NCBI GenBank assembly: GCA_021205755.1
Contig: JAJPWX010000003.1
Location: 1 to 64,000 of the forward strand
Source of the DNA: Lachnospiraceae bacterium
GTDB taxonomy: Bacteria > Bacillota > Clostridia > Lachnospirales > Lachnospiraceae
Reading direction: 5' to 3'
DNA length: 64,000 nucleotides
Position numbers and translations under genes: made by a program
In this document: piece by piece, positions 43,540 through 53,912 of the stretch
Position numbering within the stretch: position 1 is the first letter of the stretch
Layout: each line of letters starts with the position of its first letter
Notes under the pieces: generated by a model
What the model saw: the letters and a program-made list of their open reading frames with translations, nothing else
Database searches by the model: none
What the model was told of the DNA's origin: nothing

Positions 43540-46500
43540 TCAAATCATCCTTCTACGCCCGTATAACAGCACCAGCCCCACGCCGCCGAAAAGAACGAAG
43601 AGTGTGCCTATCAGTGTAAACATCCACGTCCCCGAACCACCGGATTCCGGCATCTCATAGCCGGGTGTGTTCATAACCCGAATGGTCAGGCTGTCAGTTG
43701 CTTTAACCAAACTCATAACCGCACTGTTACCGCTGACGCTTGTAACTTTGCCATCAGCTACTATAAATGTAATCGTTCCATTCAAGGTGTTATACCCGTC
43801 CGGAGCAGTAACTTCCTCCAGGTAATAAGTTCCGTCCGGCAAACTGATAAATGAAATAGAACCAGACGCATCCGTTGTTAGCTGATTCTCGTTTTCTACC
43901 CATGACACGCCGTCTGTTTGATTGTAGGAATAATAATATTTCTTTGTCTCATTACCAGAGACTTCTGTCTTATACAAGACAAATGCCGCGCCGGAAAGAG
44001 ACGTGCTCGTATCAGCTGAACTCACCTTCTGCAGAGTAACGATTGGAAGCCGTTTATTCGTAATCGTATAATCCTTGCCCTCCGTAGTTACTGTTTCTTT
44101 CACATATATCTTTACATTTCTTGTGTCTGTTTCTGTCTGCCGCCCAGCAACCAAAGCATACGAACCGTCTTCTTTAATTATTATCCTCAGACCAGTATTG
44201 TCTTCCGTATTCAATTCGCCTAACTGATTGTATGAAAAAACAGTTGCTCCGCTCTTATCACTCACTGTCGTCAGACTGTAGTTCCCCGTAGTACCTGTAA
44301 TCGCCAGATAAGCTCCAGATGAATCCTTCAGATAAAAGGAAGGCACATAATAAGTACCGGTACCGTCACCAAATTTCACATACTCGCCGGTCAATTCTAC
44401 TGTCCAGACAGAAGTTGTACTCACATACGTATCGGAAGTTACGCCGTAAGTGTAACTGCCGCTATTAGCTACAGATTCTGTCGCTTTCTGAGAGAACTGG
44501 GCTTCTTTCGTTGAAATGCTACTGCCATCACTGTCAATCACATACCCATTGTAGGTAGCCGGATAACCAGAGGTACTCGCATTTCCGTTCTGAGCGCCAT
44601 CCGTTAGAACAATTTGAAGTCCATCCGTCAGAATTCCGCCCGTTCGCGTGTAAGTACTGCCATCATAAGTAACCGTACCATTCAGCGCATCACACCCATC
44701 GACCGCTTTCCAATACTCATACTCCTGTAACGCGCTATATGTGGATGTAGTGGTGTAATTTGAAAGATCGGTCAGCTCCAGCACTTCGTAGGTATTATCA
44801 AGATCCAGTAATTCCCAGGTATATGTCCAATCATTACTATAACTCACCACTTGCGTATCAACCCGCACATACAAATAGCCATCACTGACATACGCATTTA
44901 CATATCCATTTGAGTCACTGTCATATGAATAACCGTCACTTTGCAATATGTAGTCTGTATTATTCCAGGTATAGGTAACCGTCCCATCCCCATTATCTTT
45001 CCCTGACGTCACAGTCGTCTTCTGAAACAGGCCCATAGTCACAGAAGAATATCCGGATGTATCCGTACCCGTTACTGTATTTCCGTCAGAATCTTTCCAT
45101 ACCTTCGTGATTTTCATGGTTCCTGCTTCAGCCGTTTCATATACCCAGCGGGGTACCATATTAAGCTTAATCGACAGGTTCGAATCCCATGCACCGCGCT
45201 CCATATAATAAACCGTCAGAGTATGAGTGCCAGCGGTGGTGCCTGATAAAGCTTTCGAGGATACAGTCCCATTCACTGTTACATCACCACTCGAAAAATC
45301 AATAGTGCCGCTCATTGTGCTATGTATACCGCTCATGTTCATCACAAGCTCGCCATCTATAAAGACCCAAACATCGTCGTCACCAGTGAACTCAAACAAC
45401 ATATCTGTGTCATTGTATATATTCCCACCTGTCCCTACATCATTGGGCAGATAAAAATCAATCTCAATGCTCATGCCAAACCAGTAGTTCAAGGTACCGT
45501 CACTGATACTGGAATAGGAGTCCACCTCATTGTATGGGAAAAAAGCCTGACCATATCCACTCACAGTCGTAGGTGTATCTGACAAATAAAATCTCTGTGC
45601 ACTCTGGTTATAGGCAGCACCATCTTCATCGGAATTAAAATAATAGTATCCGTCGCTATCTATTTGAAATAAATAATTAGCAGTACCTAGATATTCCACA
45701 CCGATTGTACTTCCGCTGGTATCATAGAGCTTGCTGAATACTGGCGAAGTAGATGCTTCATCCATTTCCCAATTATCATATGTTTTTTCATTATTCCAGT
45801 TCCACGTCTGCAAATTTTTTACAAAGCCAAGCAGTCCATTGCTGTCAGCAGATTGATCACTGCTATTGTTTGTTCGGCTATTTTGGAAAATGAAGCTCTC
45901 ATCTAGCACAGTTGAACTTCCTCTTATCAACAGGTCTGAATACAAGCTTCCGCTGTCCGCCCATGTTTCACTCGTCAACCCAGACTGTGTCAGGGAAGCG
46001 CTGTACAGGTTAAACAGTTCATTATAGTCAAACATCTGAATAGTGATGAAACTACTGGTATCTACTCCCAATGTCGAACTGGAACCAAAGTCGTAGCTTT
46101 CAGCGATCCAGTCTGCGTAAAATACATTATCGTCATCTAAATCCACCGCAGCGTCGACCGAACCGTTGCTTACATCATAATACTCACCGGTGGCAATGTT
46201 GATCCAGCCCACCAGTTTCCATGCATAAGGAGCAGCCTCATTCGCTAAATCCACGGTAATATCGGTGGAATTTGATGTGTCATCCGCATCTACAACTGTG
46301 AACGTACTTGTCCCTGTACCACTGCTCAGATCGCTGTCACTGGGCAGATGGATTGTGACCATCCTATCTGTATCTTCATTTGCATTAGATAAATCAACAG
46401 TATAACGAAGGTCTGTTCCGCCGCTTCCCTGGCTGCCGCCTGAATAATCGCTGTCCTGCAGCACTCCATTCCCGTTGCCCAGATTCAGGACAATACCTGC

Positions 46501-49230
46501 AGTTGGGGTAGCCGCAGTGACAGTGATGGTGTAGGTTTCTTTATTTTTATTATTATTCCCCCATGTATGCGTAATCGTTACAGTACCGACCTTCACACCG
46601 GTAACGGTCACTGACTTATTATTCGTCGAATCAAAGCTTACTTCACCGCCATCCGTACTTGTATAAGTCCAGTTATGGTTATTATTACCACTTGTGCTTG
46701 TTAGAAGAATACTCTTCCCTACCTGCACCGTAGTATCCCCACTAATGGAAGCCAAAGATATCCCATATTCAGAAAACCCTGTAGCTTCAAAAGTGATAGT
46801 CTGACTGCCGTTTTGGTAATCAGAAAGAACATCCATCGTTTCGGTTGTCTCTTCACCAAAATGAGTGACAGAATAGTACTCCAGACCGTCTTTTCCAAGG
46901 TAGGAGATCGTAACGGTCACTGCAGCGTCGGGTTCTATTTCCTCACCATCCACATACAGGCCAATATTAAACAGTCGAAATCCATGGTAATTGTCTTCCG
47001 GCTCAGAAGTATCTGTTTCCTCTGTTTCTGTTACCACTACTTCTGTTTCTTCGGTTTCATTTTCTGCATCCTCTTCACCGGAAGCAGACTCTTCCACATC
47101 TTCTTCCTGATCCCATCCGTACAGTGCCGCTGCTTCCGCATAGCTGGTCTGCCAGTTCTCGGAATCCTGCGCATATTCTGACACAATCAGTTCTACGTTA
47201 TCAGGCAGTCCTGCAGCTTCTCCGTAAGTAACGGTAACGACATAGTCTTCTCCCTCATATGTCAGAGTCGTCAGTTCCTCTTCTGTTTCCTCATCTTCCT
47301 CATAAATAGCGGATGAGATTGCATAATAAAAACCATCGTTCAGAGCAAACTGCAGGATCTGATCGCCGGATTCTTCGTTGTATTCCGATGAAAAATCGGC
47401 TGCAGCAGCTTCTCCATCCTCTACGCCATATTCTGTTACCGTGCAGAAAGCCGCGCCTTCTCTATTATGGAATGTAAAGGTTACACTACCCTGTGCGGTA
47501 AGTTCAATTTTCTCTCCATCCGCGTACAGTTCAAAGGAAAATAGCCGAAATTCTAAACCAGTACTTGCATCTGCAACAGCTGCTTCCGCTTCTGCTTCTG
47601 TTACATCTGCATCCGTTGTTTCCGAAGCAGATTTCATTTCTTCCGTATCAGTTGTTTCCGCTATGGCCTCTATTTCTCCCTCATCTGCTACTTCCGCGAC
47701 AGCCTCCGTTTCTCCCGCATCTGCGTATTCCGCGACAACCTGCGTTTCTTCTGCATCCGCCACTTCGCCTGTAACGCTCCAACCATACAAAACCACTGCT
47801 TCGGCATACGCTGCCTGATATAGTTCGGAATCTGAATCGTATTCTTCCACCACCAGCACGGCGTCTTCAGGAATCTCTGCATCTTCGTCATATGTGACAA
47901 CCACCGTATATTCTTCGCACTCACTCATCAGAGAGATTTCGGAGCCCTCGGATTCTGGTTCCATCTCAGATTCCGATTCCGTCTCAGATTCCCCATCGAA
48001 ATCAGTTTCTTCCTCAGATTCCACTTCTGTCAGGCCTTCTTCGGACTCCGTCTCCGCCTGATTTTCTTCCGATTCTCCCTCAGCAAGATTCTTCTCGGTC
48101 TCGACTTCTGTCAGACCTTCCGCAGCCGCAGTTATTTCGCTTTCTTCTGCTTCGGTCTCTGCCTCTTCCGTTTCCGACTCTTCCTCGGATTTCTGCGCTG
48201 CAGATACGGTTCCATAACCAACGATTTTCTGATCACTCACACTGTATTCCGTACTGCAGACTGCGTCCGTATCGCCCTCGTTCGCCGCATAGTCGCCCTC
48301 GATGACGGTCAGCCGAGCGTTGCTTTCATTGACAGTTACTACGATACCGACCCGGTCGATTTTGCCGTCATTGTCGGCATCAAAAAAGACAAGGTCGCCA
48401 GATTGGACTTCGTAATCCGATGCGTCCTCGTAAAGTCCCATGTTATTCAGGGTGACAGACCAGGCATAAGCGCCGGTCGCCTCTGGAAATTCTGTTTGCG
48501 GTACGCCGGCATAAGACAGGCAGAAAGAGACGAACATGGCATCCCAATCTCCGTATTCATTTCCCGCCCACGCGCCGTAACGGGTGTAGCCCTGTGTCGT
48601 CTCGCCGTCATCGGCCAGTTTAAAGTTAGCCGTGCTCTCTGCATAACCGACCTGGCTCTTCGCCACAGCCACCAGGTTCTCCGCCCATGTTCCGCTTAAG
48701 GTCGAGGGAAGGGTTGCTTCCCAGACAGAAGCGGTCTCCAGATCCGCCGTCTCGTCGATCATGCACGCGATCGTATGAGTGTGTTCTTCAAGACCGCACA
48801 CGAGCTGCTTTTCATAGCAGGCATCGGTATGGGTGTGACCAGTTTCGGGCTCACACTCTTCTAGCTCGCAGATCAGCACCTGCTCCGTCTGATAGCATGC
48901 TTCCGTATGGGTATGATCCTCGCCCTCCTCCAGGCCGCAGATCAGCGTTGTCACCGTCTCGTAGCATTCTTCCGTGTGCGTATGGCCGGGCGTCCCCTCC
49001 GATTCTTCGAGGCCGCAGACCAGCACCAGCTCATAGCAGCTGTCGTCATGCACATGCTCGGTTTTGCCGCAATAAACTTCGTTGGTCAGTGCCGCACCGG
49101 TCAGCCGGAGCTGCCAGTACACGCCCGTACCCACCAGGAGGGCAAGCAACAGCAGCACGCAGACCAGCCATCTGCGCATGCGCCGTTCCCTCTTAAATTT
49201 ATCAAGATAGGTATTTATCAGGTTCTGCAA
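43540..49230 (-). CDS. Giant pilus-associated adhesin 2: HTHT/CY repeats, CHAP-like domain, fibro-slime domain, Cna-B/SpaA domains, MPESGG sorting signal
   Basis: Intact 1896-aa paralogue of adhesin 1; FEFTGDDDVWVFIDGELVMNMSGIHSTMSGTI (fibro-slime); YEMPESGG-TM-RRR tail. Confidence 0.9.
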   Translation of the reverse strand: MQNLINTYLDKFKRERRMRRWLVCVLLLLALLVGTGVYWQLRLTGAALTNEVYCGKTEHVHDDSCYELVLVCGLEESEGTPGHTHTEECYETVTTLICGLEEGEDHTHTEACYQTEQVLICELEECEPETGHTHTDACYEKQLVCGLEEHTHTIACMIDETADLETASVWEATLPSTLSGTWAENLVAVAKSQVGYAESTANFKLADDGETTQGYTRYGAWAGNEYGDWDAMFVSFCLSYAGVPQTEFPEATGAYAWSVTLNNMGLYEDASDYEVQSGDLVFFDADNDGKIDRVGIVVTVNESNARLTVIEGDYAANEGDTDAVCSTEYSVSDQKIVGYGTVSAAQKSEEESETEEAETEAEESEITAAAEGLTEVETEKNLAEGESEENQAETESEEGLTEVESEEETDFDGESETESESEMEPESEGSEISLMSECEEYTVVVTYDEDAEIPEDAVLVVEEYDSDSELYQAAYAEAVVLYGWSVTGEVADAEETQVVAEYADAGETEAVAEVADEGEIEAIAETTDTEEMKSASETTDADVTEAEAEAAVADASTGLEFRLFSFELYADGEKIELTAQGSVTFTFHNREGAAFCTVTEYGVEDGEAAAADFSSEYNEESGDQILQFALNDGFYYAISSAIYEEDEETEEELTTLTYEGEDYVVTVTYGEAAGLPDNVELIVSEYAQDSENWQTSYAEAAALYGWDQEEDVEESASGEEDAENETEETEVVVTETEETDTSEPEDNYHGFRLFNIGLYVDGEEIEPDAAVTVTISYLGKDGLEYYSVTHFGEETTETMDVLSDYQNGSQTITFEATGFSEYGISLASISGDTTVQVGKSILLTSTSGNNNHNWTYTSTDGGEVSFDSTNNKSVTVTGVKVGTVTITHTWGNNNKNKETYTITVTAATPTAGIVLNLGNGNGVLQDSDYSGGSQGSGGTDLRYTVDLSNANEDTDRMVTIHLPSDSDLSSGTGTSTFTVVDADDTSNSTDITVDLANEAAPYAWKLVGWINIATGEYYDVSNGSVDAAVDLDDDNVFYADWIAESYDFGSSSTLGVDTSSFITIQMFDYNELFNLYSASLTQSGLTSETWADSGSLYSDLLIRGSSTVLDESFIFQNSRTNNSSDQSADSNGLLGFVKNLQTWNWNNEKTYDNWEMDEASTSPVFSKLYDTSGSTIGVEYLGTANYLFQIDSDGYYYFNSDEDGAAYNQSAQRFYLSDTPTTVSGYGQAFFPYNEVDSYSSISDGTLNYWFGMSIEIDFYLPNDVGTGGNIYNDTDMLFEFTGDDDVWVFIDGELVMNMSGIHSTMSGTIDFSSGDVTVNGTVSSKALSGTTAGTHTLTVYYMERGAWDSNLSIKLNMVPRWVYETAEAGTMKITKVWKDSDGNTVTGTDTSGYSSVTMGLFQKTTVTSGKDNGDGTVTYTWNNTDYILQSDGYSYDSDSNGYVNAYVSDGYLYVRVDTQVVSYSNDWTYTWELLDLDNTYEVLELTDLSNYTTTSTYSALQEYEYWKAVDGCDALNGTVTYDGSTYTRTGGILTDGLQIVLTDGAQNGNASTSGYPATYNGYVIDSDGSSISTKEAQFSQKATESVANSGSYTYGVTSDTYVSTTSVWTVELTGEYVKFGDGTGTYYVPSFYLKDSSGAYLAITGTTGNYSLTTVSDKSGATVFSYNQLGELNTEDNTGLRIIIKEDGSYALVAGRQTETDTRNVKIYVKETVTTEGKDYTITNKRLPIVTLQKVSSADTSTSLSGAAFVLYKTEVSGNETKKYYYSYNQTDGVSWVENENQLTTDASGSISFISLPDGTYYLEEVTAPDGYNTLNGTITFIVADGKVTSVSGNSAVMSLVKATDSLTIRVMNTPGYEMPESGGSGTWMFTLIGTLFVLFGGVGLVLLYGRRRMI

Positions 49231-49305: not shown

Positions 49306-49902
49306 TCAGCTTATCAGCGAAATCTGATTCAGCGGCCATACTCTCAATATGACCTTCCCGACAATCTGATCGACCTCAATACAGCCAATCGCGCTGCTTC
49401 GGGAATCGATCGAGGTCGTCCGGTTATCTCCCATAACAAAATAGCGGTTTTCCGGCACCTGGTAGGGATAGGTAATATCCGTCTCTCCCAGGGATTTTGC
49501 CGTCACATACGGTTCGTCAATCAATTCGCCGTTGACCGTCACATTGCCATCCTCATCAATATCAATATAATCTCCGGGGCCGCCAATGACGCGTTTCAAA
49601 AGCAGCTTGTTCTGATAGTAAAACCCGATCAGATCCCCCGTTTCAAACTTTTTGGTTTTTACCAGAAGAATGATGTCGCCATCCGACAGGGTCGGCTCCA
49701 TGCTAGAACCGGATACCTGCAACATTGGAAGAAAAAGGGTTGCCAACAGGACAGACAACGCCGCCACAATGATAAGCGCGTATATGGTCGTCCGCAGGGT
49801 CTGCCGATACTGCTTCTGATACTTCAGCCGCTCCCGCTCCTCCACAATCGCTTCCTCGCTGGGGATTTTCGCTGTATGCAGGTCATACCGATGCTCCGTC
49901 AA
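49306..49902 (-). CDS. lepB: Signal peptidase I within the pilus operon
   Basis: SGSSMEPTLSDGD (Ser), LLKRVIGGPGD (Lys), YFVMGDNRTTSIDSR. Confidence 0.95.
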   Translation of the reverse strand: MTEHRYDLHTAKIPSEEAIVEERERLKYQKQYRQTLRTTIYALIIVAALSVLLATLFLPMLQVSGSSMEPTLSDGDIILLVKTKKFETGDLIGFYYQNKLLLKRVIGGPGDYIDIDEDGNVTVNGELIDEPYVTAKSLGETDITYPYQVPENRYFVMGDNRTTSIDSRSSAIGCIEVDQIVGKVILRVWPLNQISLIS

Positions 49903-50041: not shown

Positions 50042-50947
50042 CTAACTGGCCGTTCCGGTCTCTTGCTTTTCCTGCTTTTCTTTCTTCCTCTTATTTCTGA
50101 CCCTGTGAGAATCCCAGAACACCCAGACCATCAAAAGTCCCATCATCGGAACCGCCAGAATCGGGGTGGCCAGAAGCGGCGACAATTTTTTCGCCTCCGC
50201 TGTCACATTGATCAGCCGCGTATCCGCATTTTCCACCCGCACGCCTCTCACCAGAAGCCGTTCGCTGTTGACCCCGTAGGGGGTACAGGTCAGCAGCGTG
50301 CAGTAATCTTTTCCTTCCTCTATATACAGGTATTCAATCTCACTCGGATCGACAATGGATATCTGGTCGACCTCATAGGTCATCACCCGATCCAGCACCG
50401 TAATCGTAAACGTATCTCCGATCTCCATCTGATCCAGATGGGTAAACAGCAGAGCGCTCGGCAATCCGCGGTGCGCGGAAATCACGCAATGGGTACTCTC
50501 CCCGCCCACCGGGAGGCTGCTCCCCTCCAGATGTCCCGAGGCGGTCTGCAGCACATTCACATCCGTGCCGTGATAAATCGGGAGCTGCACGTCAATCTTC
50601 TCAATGGTAACATACCCCATCACGCCGGTACCGCTGACATCCAGCAGATCCCAATAATCCTCATCCACCAGCTCCGGAGACGGAATCGTCCGCGCCGACC
50701 CGATTTCCGCCAGCTGCTCGTTATACGCTTCCGCCGCCTCAAAGTAAGCAGTGTAATCAGTCTCCGATAAATCCGCCACGGCCTCATCATAAGTCGCCAC
50801 AGCACGGGTCGTCACCTGATCATTCCACCAGTTGCTCACAGAGGGATAGGCCACAATGACAATTCCAGCCAGAAGCACACACACCAGAAGAATCGTTATC
50901 ATCCGATCCTTTCTTGCACCCCGCTTCATTTTCCCGCGCTGTTTCAT
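50042..50947 (-). CDS. srtC: Class C sortase
   Basis: GHLEGSSLPVGGESTHCVISAHRGLPSALLFTHLD, LLTCTPYGVNSERLLVRG, C-terminal TM. Confidence 0.95.
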   Translation of the reverse strand: MKQRGKMKRGARKDRMITILLVCVLLAGIVIVAYPSVSNWWNDQVTTRAVATYDEAVADLSETDYTAYFEAAEAYNEQLAEIGSARTIPSPELVDEDYWDLLDVSGTGVMGYVTIEKIDVQLPIYHGTDVNVLQTASGHLEGSSLPVGGESTHCVISAHRGLPSALLFTHLDQMEIGDTFTITVLDRVMTYEVDQISIVDPSEIEYLYIEEGKDYCTLLTCTPYGVNSERLLVRGVRVENADTRLINVTAEAKKLSPLLATPILAVPMMGLLMVWVFWDSHRVRNKRKKEKQEKQETGTAS

Positions 50948-51019: not shown

Positions 51020-52693
51020 TTACTCCTCCTCACGCCTTCTCATACGACTTCTGGTAATCAGCAGCACCACCGCCAGAAGAATCAGTGTCGGACCAACAAC
51101 ATAGAAGATCGTCGTGCCGATGCCGCCGGTGGAAGGCATGGTAGAGCCGGAGTTGTTTTCTACAGTTACGGAAACCGCTCCAGTTGATGTGTTTCCATTA
51201 GCAGGCGTTCCTCCATCAACCGTTACCGTCAGTGTATTAATTTCATCATAATCACCGTCAGAATCTGTATCCGTATATGTAGCAGAAATAACGATAGTAA
51301 TCGAGCTAGACAGCTTATTATAACCATCTGGAGCCTTTGTCTCTTCCAAGTAATATGTTCCTGCGCCAAGGCCAATGATCTTAAAGATACCGTATGAATC
51401 CGATTTCAAAGTAGATGCCTGGTCACTGTCAGTCGTCCATCCGGTAATTTTACCAGTGTTTTCATCAACCTGGGCATAATACGTGATGCTATTTCCGTCA
51501 GTGTAATAAAGCTTAAATTCCGCATTTTCCAATACTTTAGTATTGTCGTTTCCATCTACCTTGGTCACATCCAATTCAAATGTAAACGTAACAACCTGAT
51601 CCGTAGTTGTTGTGCCTGTTTCACTTCCATTTGGATTATTGGAATACGTCACGTTAACCTCGTTGGGGTTACCAGTACTACCACTAACAGCGTTCCCATT
51701 CAACTTGGCCTTATAGGTCACAACAATTACACTATCTTTTGTCACGGAGATTTTCGAAGTTGAAGCACTATCTGAATACAAAGAGTTCACATCACCAATC
51801 CCAACCGTCAGAACCGTGCCACCCTCATACGTACTGTTCGTGCCAGAATAATTAGCCGCAGTAACCGTATAGCTGCCATTTGAGCTATCTACTACCACCC
51901 CATTAGTTCCATTCTCAGCATCAGAAGCACTTGGGTAAACAGTAACTGTCACATCTGATGTCTGTATTGAAGAACCAGAAGTAACCAGTGTCAAGCCTTT
52001 TGACAAAGTATCGTTAAACACAAGCTGATAAGTAGAATAATCAGCAAGTGTACTTGGAAGTGTGGCAGTCAATGTATATGTCACTTCTTCATCGATACTA
52101 GCGCTTGTATTACTAACTTTCTTATCAACAGTGGGTATACCAGACTTTGGGGTCACCGTAATACTTTTCACAACTTCAAGTATGTAGTTGGAATAAACAG
52201 TGCCTTCTCCACTGGAAGGAATAGCAGTATTTTTAATCAAATAATAACCCGCTCCAACAACATCAGCAGTATAGTTTTTAGCAGTATCACTATATGTGAA
52301 AGTTTTCGCTGGAGTTAGAGTATAGCTTTCAGCAATGTACTCAGCAAATGCAGTAACATCAATTCCTCCATTACTCGCTCCATCAACTAATGCTTCGGCG
52401 AGACCGGCGGCACTATATGCATAAGTAGTCCCATCCAATATGGATGAATAATTTAAAAGCACACTAGCTTGATCCGTTGGGCTGAGTGCACTGCCAAACT
52501 CAATGTTAGACAATGTGCTACCAGACAGATCTCCTTTAAAAATCTGATACGCAATATACGTATATCCATCTGTTTCATTTTCAATAGTAATGGTGTATGT
52601 GTTCGTATCCGCCGCCATCACCGTCATACTCATCGCCAGCGCCATGACCAGCACCAGCATCAATCCCGCAATTTTTCTAAATCTTCTCATCAT
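51020..52693 (-). CDS. Major pilin (SpaA/isopeptide-forming)
   Basis: Signal peptide MMRRFRKIAGLMLVLVMALAMSMTVMAA; Cna-B/SpaA modules (GTYYLEETKAPDGYNKL); MPSTGG-TM-RMRRREEE. Start after aaaggagaa. Confidence 0.93.
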   Translation of the reverse strand: MMRRFRKIAGLMLVLVMALAMSMTVMAADTNTYTITIENETDGYTYIAYQIFKGDLSGSTLSNIEFGSALSPTDQASVLLNYSSILDGTTYAYSAAGLAEALVDGASNGGIDVTAFAEYIAESYTLTPAKTFTYSDTAKNYTADVVGAGYYLIKNTAIPSSGEGTVYSNYILEVVKSITVTPKSGIPTVDKKVSNTSASIDEEVTYTLTATLPSTLADYSTYQLVFNDTLSKGLTLVTSGSSIQTSDVTVTVYPSASDAENGTNGVVVDSSNGSYTVTAANYSGTNSTYEGGTVLTVGIGDVNSLYSDSASTSKISVTKDSVIVVTYKAKLNGNAVSGSTGNPNEVNVTYSNNPNGSETGTTTTDQVVTFTFELDVTKVDGNDNTKVLENAEFKLYYTDGNSITYYAQVDENTGKITGWTTDSDQASTLKSDSYGIFKIIGLGAGTYYLEETKAPDGYNKLSSSITIVISATYTDTDSDGDYDEINTLTVTVDGGTPANGNTSTGAVSVTVENNSGSTMPSTGGIGTTIFYVVGPTLILLAVVLLITRSRMRRREEE

Positions 52694-52724
52694 GCTCTTC
52701 TCCTTTAGCGTTATTTGATTTGTT

Positions 52725-52781
52725 GTAGCAGTTCCGAACAGCATCAAAATGAAAAGACCGCCTGCTGTTCTGAATAGTTAC
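52725..52781. repeat. MITE-like repeat, minimal copy E (57 bp), in the pilin 5' UTR
   Basis: gtagcagttccgaacagcatcaaaatgaaaagaccgcctgctgttctgaatagttac; about 19-bp imperfect inverted repeat. Confidence 0.8.
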
Positions 52782-53036
52782 GTTTTTTATTTCCTTTATA
52801 AAAACAGGGTGTCCCAAGATATCACTCCGGAATAACTTTTCCTCTCCTTCGAGAAAGTCCTCCCTCTGCATCTGATCCACCCATGTCTGTTTCTTATGTA
52901 TATCATTGCCCGTTCCTCCTCCTCGCGCCGGATGCGCTCTCCGGCTTTTGCGAAAAGTGTGGCAGGTAAAACCGGTTTGCTTCATCAAACCTTTTGATCA
53001 CCCACGCTCATTTTCCTTCCAATTTTAACTGCCCCC

Positions 53037-53095
53037 ATTATATCACAGAATCCGCAAAGCGCTTAACCATTGGTCCCCAGGCTCCGACCATTCGT
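53037..53095 (-). promoter_or_regulatory. Predicted LytTR-controlled pilin operon promoter
   Basis: LytTR-type repeats ACCATTGGT (53066..53074) and ACCATTCGT (53087..53095), 12-bp spacer; extended -10 TGATATAAT, with -10 hexamer TATAAT at 53037..53042; poor -35. Confidence 0.75.
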
Positions 53096-53098
53096 GCC

Positions 53099-53809
53099 TT
53101 ATTGATCCCTGTAGAGACGAGAAAACAGCCAAGCGTCATAATCTGCCCGGATTCCCACCTTTCCCCGGCGTGGAAAGTCGAGCCGCATTCCATTGTCCAT
53201 CAAGCAGTAGTCGGCACTCATCTGCCGGATGTGTTCCATATTGGCAATCGTTCCCCGGCTCAGCCGCAGAAAGTTCTTATCGAGCTTGTCTTCGAGCTCC
53301 TGAAGGGGCGACCGAACCTGAATGGTACGGTTGTTTGTCAAATAGATTTCCTTATTATGTCTGGCGCTGAGAATGCAGATGATTTCATCCAGATACATCG
53401 TCACGTTGTCTCTGCCAATAGTGAGGGACAATAAGGGACGGAGCTTCGAGCGCAGCCGCTGCAAGCGCTGAAACGCCTCTGCCACCCCATCTGCGGTAAT
53501 CGGTTTTACCAGATAGTGAAGCGCATTCAGGGAATAAGCGTCTACCGCGAAATCAAGGCTGCAGGTGATAAACACAATGCCTGTCTGCGGAGACAGTTTT
53601 TGAATTTTGCGCGCGATATCGATACCGCTCTCGCCGGGAAGGTAGATATCCAAAAATACAATGTCAAAAACAGGCGGCTCCTGCACTGCTTCAAGCAGTT
53701 CTGCACCATTGGTAAAACACTCTGCGCATGCTCTCGGATCAAACTCTCCCAGAGCACTGGTAAACAGAGCCTGTGACCGTCTGCTGTCGTCGCAGATAGC
53801 AATTCGCAT
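53099..53809 (-). CDS. LytTR-family response regulator
   Basis: RIAICDDSRR receiver, FDIVFLDIYLPGESGIDIA phospho-Asp block, C-terminal LytTR (ICILSARHNKEIYLTNNRTIQVRSPLQELEDKLD). Confidence 0.95.
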   Translation of the reverse strand: MRIAICDDSRRSQALFTSALGEFDPRACAECFTNGAELLEAVQEPPVFDIVFLDIYLPGESGIDIARKIQKLSPQTGIVFITCSLDFAVDAYSLNALHYLVKPITADGVAEAFQRLQRLRSKLRPLLSLTIGRDNVTMYLDEIICILSARHNKEIYLTNNRTIQVRSPLQELEDKLDKNFLRLSRGTIANMEHIRQMSADYCLMDNGMRLDFPRRGKVGIRADYDAWLFSRLYRDQ

Positions 53810-53851
53810 CTCACCAGTACCCCCCCCCTCGTTAAAAAACTTATTAGTGTT

Positions 53852-53912
53852 ATTTTAACACTAAATTGATACATCCGATATACCATTCGTGCCGTATTTC
53901 TGCACCATTCGT
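53852..53912 (-). promoter_or_regulatory. Predicted autoregulated LytTR promoter
   Basis: ACCATTCGT (53882..53890) and ACCATTCGT (53904..53912), 13-bp spacer; extended -10 TGTTAAAAT, with -10 hexamer TAAAAT at 53852..53857. Confidence 0.7.

Follow-up and report, generated by a model that had tools for sequence, protein, structure and literature searches.

In the LytTR Regulatory Systems (LRS) HdrRM and BrsRM of S. mutans, HdrR binds two 9-bp direct repeats lying 12 bp (11-13 bp) apart, and by way of these repeats it activates the operon that encodes it (PMC6193735). The repeats are located just upstream of the promoter, their spacing is strongly and their half-site sequence weakly conserved, some of the promoters have an extended -10, and the two systems co-regulate each other (PMC6193735). 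In these respects the LRS resemble what is predicted for the locus described here, a LytTR response regulator gene and a sortase-dependent pilus operon of an uncultured gut bacterium in the window (the whole stretch of 64,000 nucleotides that was analysed). The differences concern the regulator, which is held by a membrane inhibitor in S. mutans and is a receiver-LytTR protein here, the repeats, which are placed 4-11 bp upstream of the -35 there and abut the -35 position here, their orientation, listed on the sense strand there whereas the half-site reads the opposite way here, and the targets, which are bacteriocins there and pili and adhesins here (PMC6193735).

The AgrA/AgrC system of S. 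aureus and the ComE-type systems share with the window locus the receiver-LytTR regulator, the direct repeats and the targeting of the regulator's own locus, and an AgrC-like kinase (49.7 bits) is encoded at the paralogous locus on contig C88 of the same genome. The regulator fold is already covered by the AgrA and ComE structures. The differences are an AgrA model score far short of the cut-off (30.2 versus 400) and the position of the repeats: the proximal AgrA repeat is centred near -60, further upstream than the repeats here (PMC4227749). AlgR of P. aeruginosa, also of the LytTR family, activates a pilus operon (fimU) and has the core site CCGTTCGTC, which matches CCATTCGTG here at 7 of 9 positions; an inverted AlgR site was functional and kept 98% activity, whereas the pili are of type IV and not sortase pili, and the sites are scattered, with no repeats spaced by 12-13 bp (PMC4064291). 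In C. perfringens VR-10B the likeness lies in gene linkage, a sortase pilus locus being accompanied by a linked two-component system (PMC8088525). No paper joining LytTR, pilus, sortase and direct repeats was found in the literature collection that was searched, and sortase-pilus regulation in uncultured gut Clostridia appears to be so far undescribed. LytTR autoregulation through such repeats is already known, whereas the half-site, its placement, its reversed reading and the sortase-pilus regulon look new.

Regulator, pilus operon and predicted operators of the window

Table 1. Positions and strands of the genes, predicted control elements and sequence tracts (window coordinates, or locus and position for related loci)
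Feature	Positions	Strand	Basis or remark
LytTR response regulator, 236 aa (receiver and LytTR DNA-binding domain)	53099..53809	(-)	Pfam domains
Major pilin, SpaH/EbpB-like, isopeptide D2 domain, MPSTGG sorting motif	51020..52693	(-)	profile matches
Class C sortase	50042..50947	(-)	profile matches
Type I signal peptidase	49306..49902	(-)	profile matches
Large SpaA/fibro-slime domain surface protein, probably pilus tip or accessory adhesin; start codon uncertain	43540..49230	(-)	
Regulator-gene operator, predicted	53882..53912	(-)	ACGAATGGT-N13-ACGAATGGT in the transcription direction
Regulator promoter, predicted extended -10 (TGT-TAAAAT)	53852..53857	(-)	second repeat + 24 nt
Pilus-operon operator, predicted	53066..53095	(-)	ACGAATGGT-N12-ACCAATGGT
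Pilin promoter, predicted extended -10 (TGA-TATAAT)	53037..53042	(-)	second repeat + 23 nt
Long 5' leader of the predicted pilin transcript, with a possible short leader peptide	52694..53036	(-)	core conserved in two other species
G9 tract in the 5' leader of the regulator gene	53820..53828	(-)	10 nt upstream of the start codon
GACA arrays	L104:5198, L105:7714, L072:9256, L071 about 13300		

The window regulator was assigned to the LytTR-domain response regulators according to its domain order and to scores above the Pfam cut-offs for both domains (Response_reg, 62.9 bits, cut-off 30.2; LytTR, 43.1 bits, cut-off 22.6), and its receiver phosphorylation residues D7, D54, T82 and K102 were invariant in 14 relatives. 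At the locus, no kinase gene adjoined it and no adjoining membrane inhibitor gene was recognised, so that the regulator-inhibitor pairing of the LRS was not found. The assignment of the pilus operon as sortase-dependent (SpaA-type) was based on the profile scores for RrgB_K2N_iso_D2 (56.9, cut-off 30) and class_C_sortase (262, cut-off 160), together with the MPSTGG motif.

By a sequence check, ACCATTCGT, the reverse complement of ACGAATGGT, was located at 53882-53890 and 53904-53912 (spacer 13 bp) in front of the regulator gene, and ACCATTGGT at 53066-53074 and ACCATTCGT at 53087-53095 (spacer 12 bp) in front of the pilin gene. Every coordinate in the preliminary description was right, including those of the repeats, spacers and -10 elements, the preceding TGA and TGT and the distances of 23 and 24 nt. 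Both sites consist of two 9-bp direct repeats with a spacer of 12-13 bp upstream of a promoter, the arrangement (spacer of 11-13 bp) by which LytTR operators are recognised. The pilin operator and promoter were aligned with the pilin promoters of two other species (G019 and G013), and similar sites stand upstream of the regulator genes of L068, L120, L121 and L077. What is exceptional is the pairing of the nonamers and not the single nonamer, which was not enriched in the window (18 matches with at most one mismatch versus 25 expected); one more exact copy, which lies within the regulator gene at 53705, had no partner.

The -35 regions had been described as poor, and this was borne out by an intrinsic promoter scan, which detected between 52600 and 54100 no sigma-70-like promoter having the two hexamers, in agreement with activator dependence, as well as by the lack of any consensus at the -35 position across 33 related sites (collected as given below). 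The LytTR consensus [TA][AC][CA]NTTN[AG][TG] was fitted in full only on the strand opposite to transcription; the sense-strand ACGAATGGT fits 5 of its 7 constrained positions, and the usual orientation, which is not strictly defining, was thus not found. This caveat, already raised, is real, all of the 33 collected sites having the same orientation, and it is not disqualifying, because the orientation is so uniform and the inverted AlgR site is functional (PMC4064291).

Sites elsewhere in the genome and in related species

Genome-wide pair counts were obtained by pattern searches with spacers of 10-15. Four exact pairs were found in the 4.02-Mb genome (0.003 expected; 0 for the control pattern), two in the window and two around a second LytTR gene on contig C88, and each precedes a regulator or a pilus operon; the other 7 of the 9 LytTR genes in the genome have no exact pair. 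The C88 response regulator is 53% identical to the window regulator and is preceded by a three-copy site with a 21-bp period. It is followed by a GHKL kinase, with AgrC as the best named match, which adjoins this paralogue and is absent beside the window regulator; no agrB- or agrD-like genes were noticed among the listed ORFs beside either regulator. The other C88 site, which likewise has three copies, is followed by another pilus operon, complete with signal peptidase, 1819-aa LPKTGG protein, LPSTGG pilin and sortase. When one or two mismatches were allowed, sites were added at two near-identical surface-protein (adhesin) operons on C33 and C52 and at a contig end on C7, each with TATAAT at 24 nt. 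The regulon of pilus operon and regulator gene that had been put forward holds in so far as both carry the operator, but the predicted set is larger than these two and includes the paralogous regulator-kinase operon, the second pilus operon and the adhesin operons.

Exact pairs were present in 9 of the 47 genomes of the genus, 7 of which carry a regulator of the same clade, and pair sites and regulator co-occur (Fisher p = 0.00036, 47 genomes). With a limit of two mismatches, 33 distinct promoter-proximal pairs were collected from 22 loci in ten species, with N12 as the spacer in 15 and N13 in 18, and with the repeats abutting the -35 position. A -10 element (within one mismatch) was located at 23-25 nt in 31 of the 33 pairs and was of the extended TGn type in 25 of these, whereas the average over 2000 base-shuffled controls was 0.84 and the highest count 6. 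The genes downstream encode LytTR regulators, pilins, signal peptidases, surface proteins with Cna_B/FctA and List_Bact repeats, a CAAX protease and an RsbW-like kinase, and the clade regulator adjoins pilus genes in six species (G000, G013, G016, G019, G008 and G015). The preliminary description had named the lack of repeat conservation between related pilus loci as a refuting result; the comparison was run, and the repeats recur in other species at regulators and pilus operons, with period and distance to the -10 (23-25 nt) unchanged. Further surface-protein genes in the ten related species have this promoter design as well, and the predicted operator is precise enough for regulons to be listed from sequence alone. 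The link is not universal, four same-clade regulators (two in L083, and those in L084 and L078) having no operator in the stretches examined.

Of the other two genomes with exact pairs, G018 has a short tandem array that lacks a suitable -10, and this match was rejected. The ACGAATGGT pair in G045 (L081:2004-2826), with an 11-bp spacer, stands before a distant LytTR regulator (26% identity) with TATAAT about 36 nt away, and was also left out. In G020 (L080:7592-10002) partner-switching and LytTR control are mixed, the operator standing before an RsbW-like kinase gene, two LytTR regulators in tandem and a gene with a STAS domain. Apparently degraded loci were seen in G011 (L122:7896-9782), with a regulator-kinase fusion frame that has no end of the LytTR domain, and in G007 (L066:8021-8389), with a truncated regulator and a still intact operator.

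A second regulator clade (group B, support 100/100; the clade of the window regulator being group A), roughly 45-51% identical and mostly from rabbit-gut MAGs, was obtained in a GTDB genome scan. The group A motif was not found in group B loci, the upstream regions of which read instead as the diverged half-site CGTAAAAGTCA; the group B regulators' own promoters have the arrangement CGTAAAAGTCA-N10-CGTAAAAGTCA, 11 nt, TTGAAA, 17 nt, TATAAT, and an intermediate half-site, CGTGAATGGTA, was present in L138. The -10 was located at 33-35 nt in 36 of 44 collected group B sites (shuffle mean 1.7), which places the site about one helical turn further upstream than in group A with the same 21-bp period. 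Group B targets comprise the regulator-kinase operon, secreted proteins, Nif11-type leader peptides and STAS-domain operons; the operators of L210 and L226 stand before Nif11-type leader peptide genes (RiPP precursors), and those of L217 and L218 are followed by STAS operons. Several fixed LytTR positions distinguish the two groups, among them K153/V, the counterpart in the alignment of the DNA-contacting residue H169 of AgrA. Since both half-site and LytTR domain differ between the clades, operator and DNA-binding domain have diverged together, and this parallel change gives the best support available for the repeats being read by the regulator itself. As a natural pair with different half-sites and site-to-promoter distances, the sister clades allow the rules of LytTR recognition and the geometry of activation to be tested directly.

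Proposed regulation and alternative explanations

It is considered quite probable that the LytTR regulator, bound to the repeats, activates both its own gene and the pilus operon, in one regulon with the C88 and adhesin operons. The interpretation in the preliminary description is supported, with a wider regulon than was put forward there. The proposal is built on the observed sequences, their pairing, the -10 spacing, the recurrence across species and the gene linkage, from which we infer that the regulator binds, that it activates and does not repress, and that the paralogues share the regulon. The product of 53099-53809, as a phosphorylation-type LytTR response regulator, would bind the ACGAATGGT direct repeats, 21-22 bp apart, its LytTR domains forming a dimer on one helix face, and the bound regulator would recruit RNA polymerase to promoters with an extended -10 and no usable -35. 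Activation of its own gene would amount to positive feedback, the adjacent sortase-dependent pilus operon would be co-activated, and the second regulator-kinase operon, the second pilus operon and the adhesin operons would be joined by the same operator into one regulon, which is probably common to the two paralogous regulators. Because the window regulator has no adjacent kinase, the AgrC-like C88 kinase would be the likeliest phosphate donor. The predicted switch for surface appendages is now testable and, if a self-activating switch for adhesive pili is true, bistable colonisation states are predicted.

The operators might instead be read mainly by the C88 paralogue, with the window regulator as a weak, decoy or modulatory partner. 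The adjacent kinase and identical operator of the C88 regulator and the use of ACGAATGGT by both regulator subclades would fit this arrangement, but it is unlikely in view of the intact domains (receiver and LytTR) of the window regulator and of the operator that its gene has kept, of the conservation of gene and operator in the pilus-adjoining relatives (with a kinase-like gene just upstream in L121 and L077), and of the absence of any spacer or half-site difference that would separate two specificities. Repression, too, could be exerted from a site that abuts the -35 position, and a negative autoregulation, by which the regulator would repress its own gene and the pilus operon until released by a signal, would make use of repeats that end where a bound protein could block polymerase. 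The combination of no -35 hexamer with a fixed distance of 23-25 nt from repeat to -10 is, however, what polymerase contact would lead one to expect; in the sister clade the site has moved by about one helical turn and TTGAAA is present, and where LytTR autoregulation at sites of this kind has been characterised, it is positive (PMC6193735), all of which leaves repression rather improbable.

Recognition of the repeats by an unrelated DNA-binding protein, with the proximity to LytTR genes as a coincidence, would agree with the four clade members that have no repeat and with the operator being a prediction from sequence, but it is very improbable when set against the genome-wide exclusivity of the pairs, the linkage across species and the parallel divergence of half-site and LytTR domain. 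As for mere chance similarity, it could appeal to the single nonamer not being enriched in the window, yet it is refuted statistically, and its probability is negligible, by the 4 pairs observed versus 0.003 expected per genome and by the fixed -10 spacing at 31 of the 33 sites.

Beyond activation by the LytTR regulator, a wider reading is offered tentatively and with more doubt than belief, namely that uncultured gut Lachnospiraceae and rabbit-gut Clostridia may have a common LytTR-controlled surface regulon. It would include a self-activating pair of paralogues driving several pilus and adhesin operons via one operator, an operator/promoter geometry shifted by one helical turn between the sister clades along with the DNA-binding domain, and phase variation added by the G9 tract before the regulator and the GACA repeats before the adhesins.

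Leaders and simple-sequence tracts

The predicted pilin leader comprises 343 nt, and a core of about 30 nt is nearly identical in G019 and G013, the conservation of this core in the two species being stronger than that of the pilin itself. The fold z-score of the leader was -2.8, no match to Rfam RNA families was obtained in the region, and the possible leader peptide has a strong Shine-Dalgarno sequence. The conserved pilin leader, the G9 tract and the GACA arrays suggest that phase variation and leader-level control may be added to the predicted activation.

Tracts at the same place as that before the window regulator were found in relatives, with G9 in L120 (L120:9601) and G7 in L068, and the whole genome contains 8 tracts of at least G9. 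In several species a poly-G tract of 7-9 immediately precedes the start codon of the regulator or kinase gene, the one at L014:11898 preceding a kinase gene, and such tracts are a possible slippage site affecting translation. (GACA)8-14 arrays were present in the 5' leaders of operator-bearing adhesin operons of two species, with 14 and 11 units, respectively, in the two near-identical adhesin operons of the source genome.
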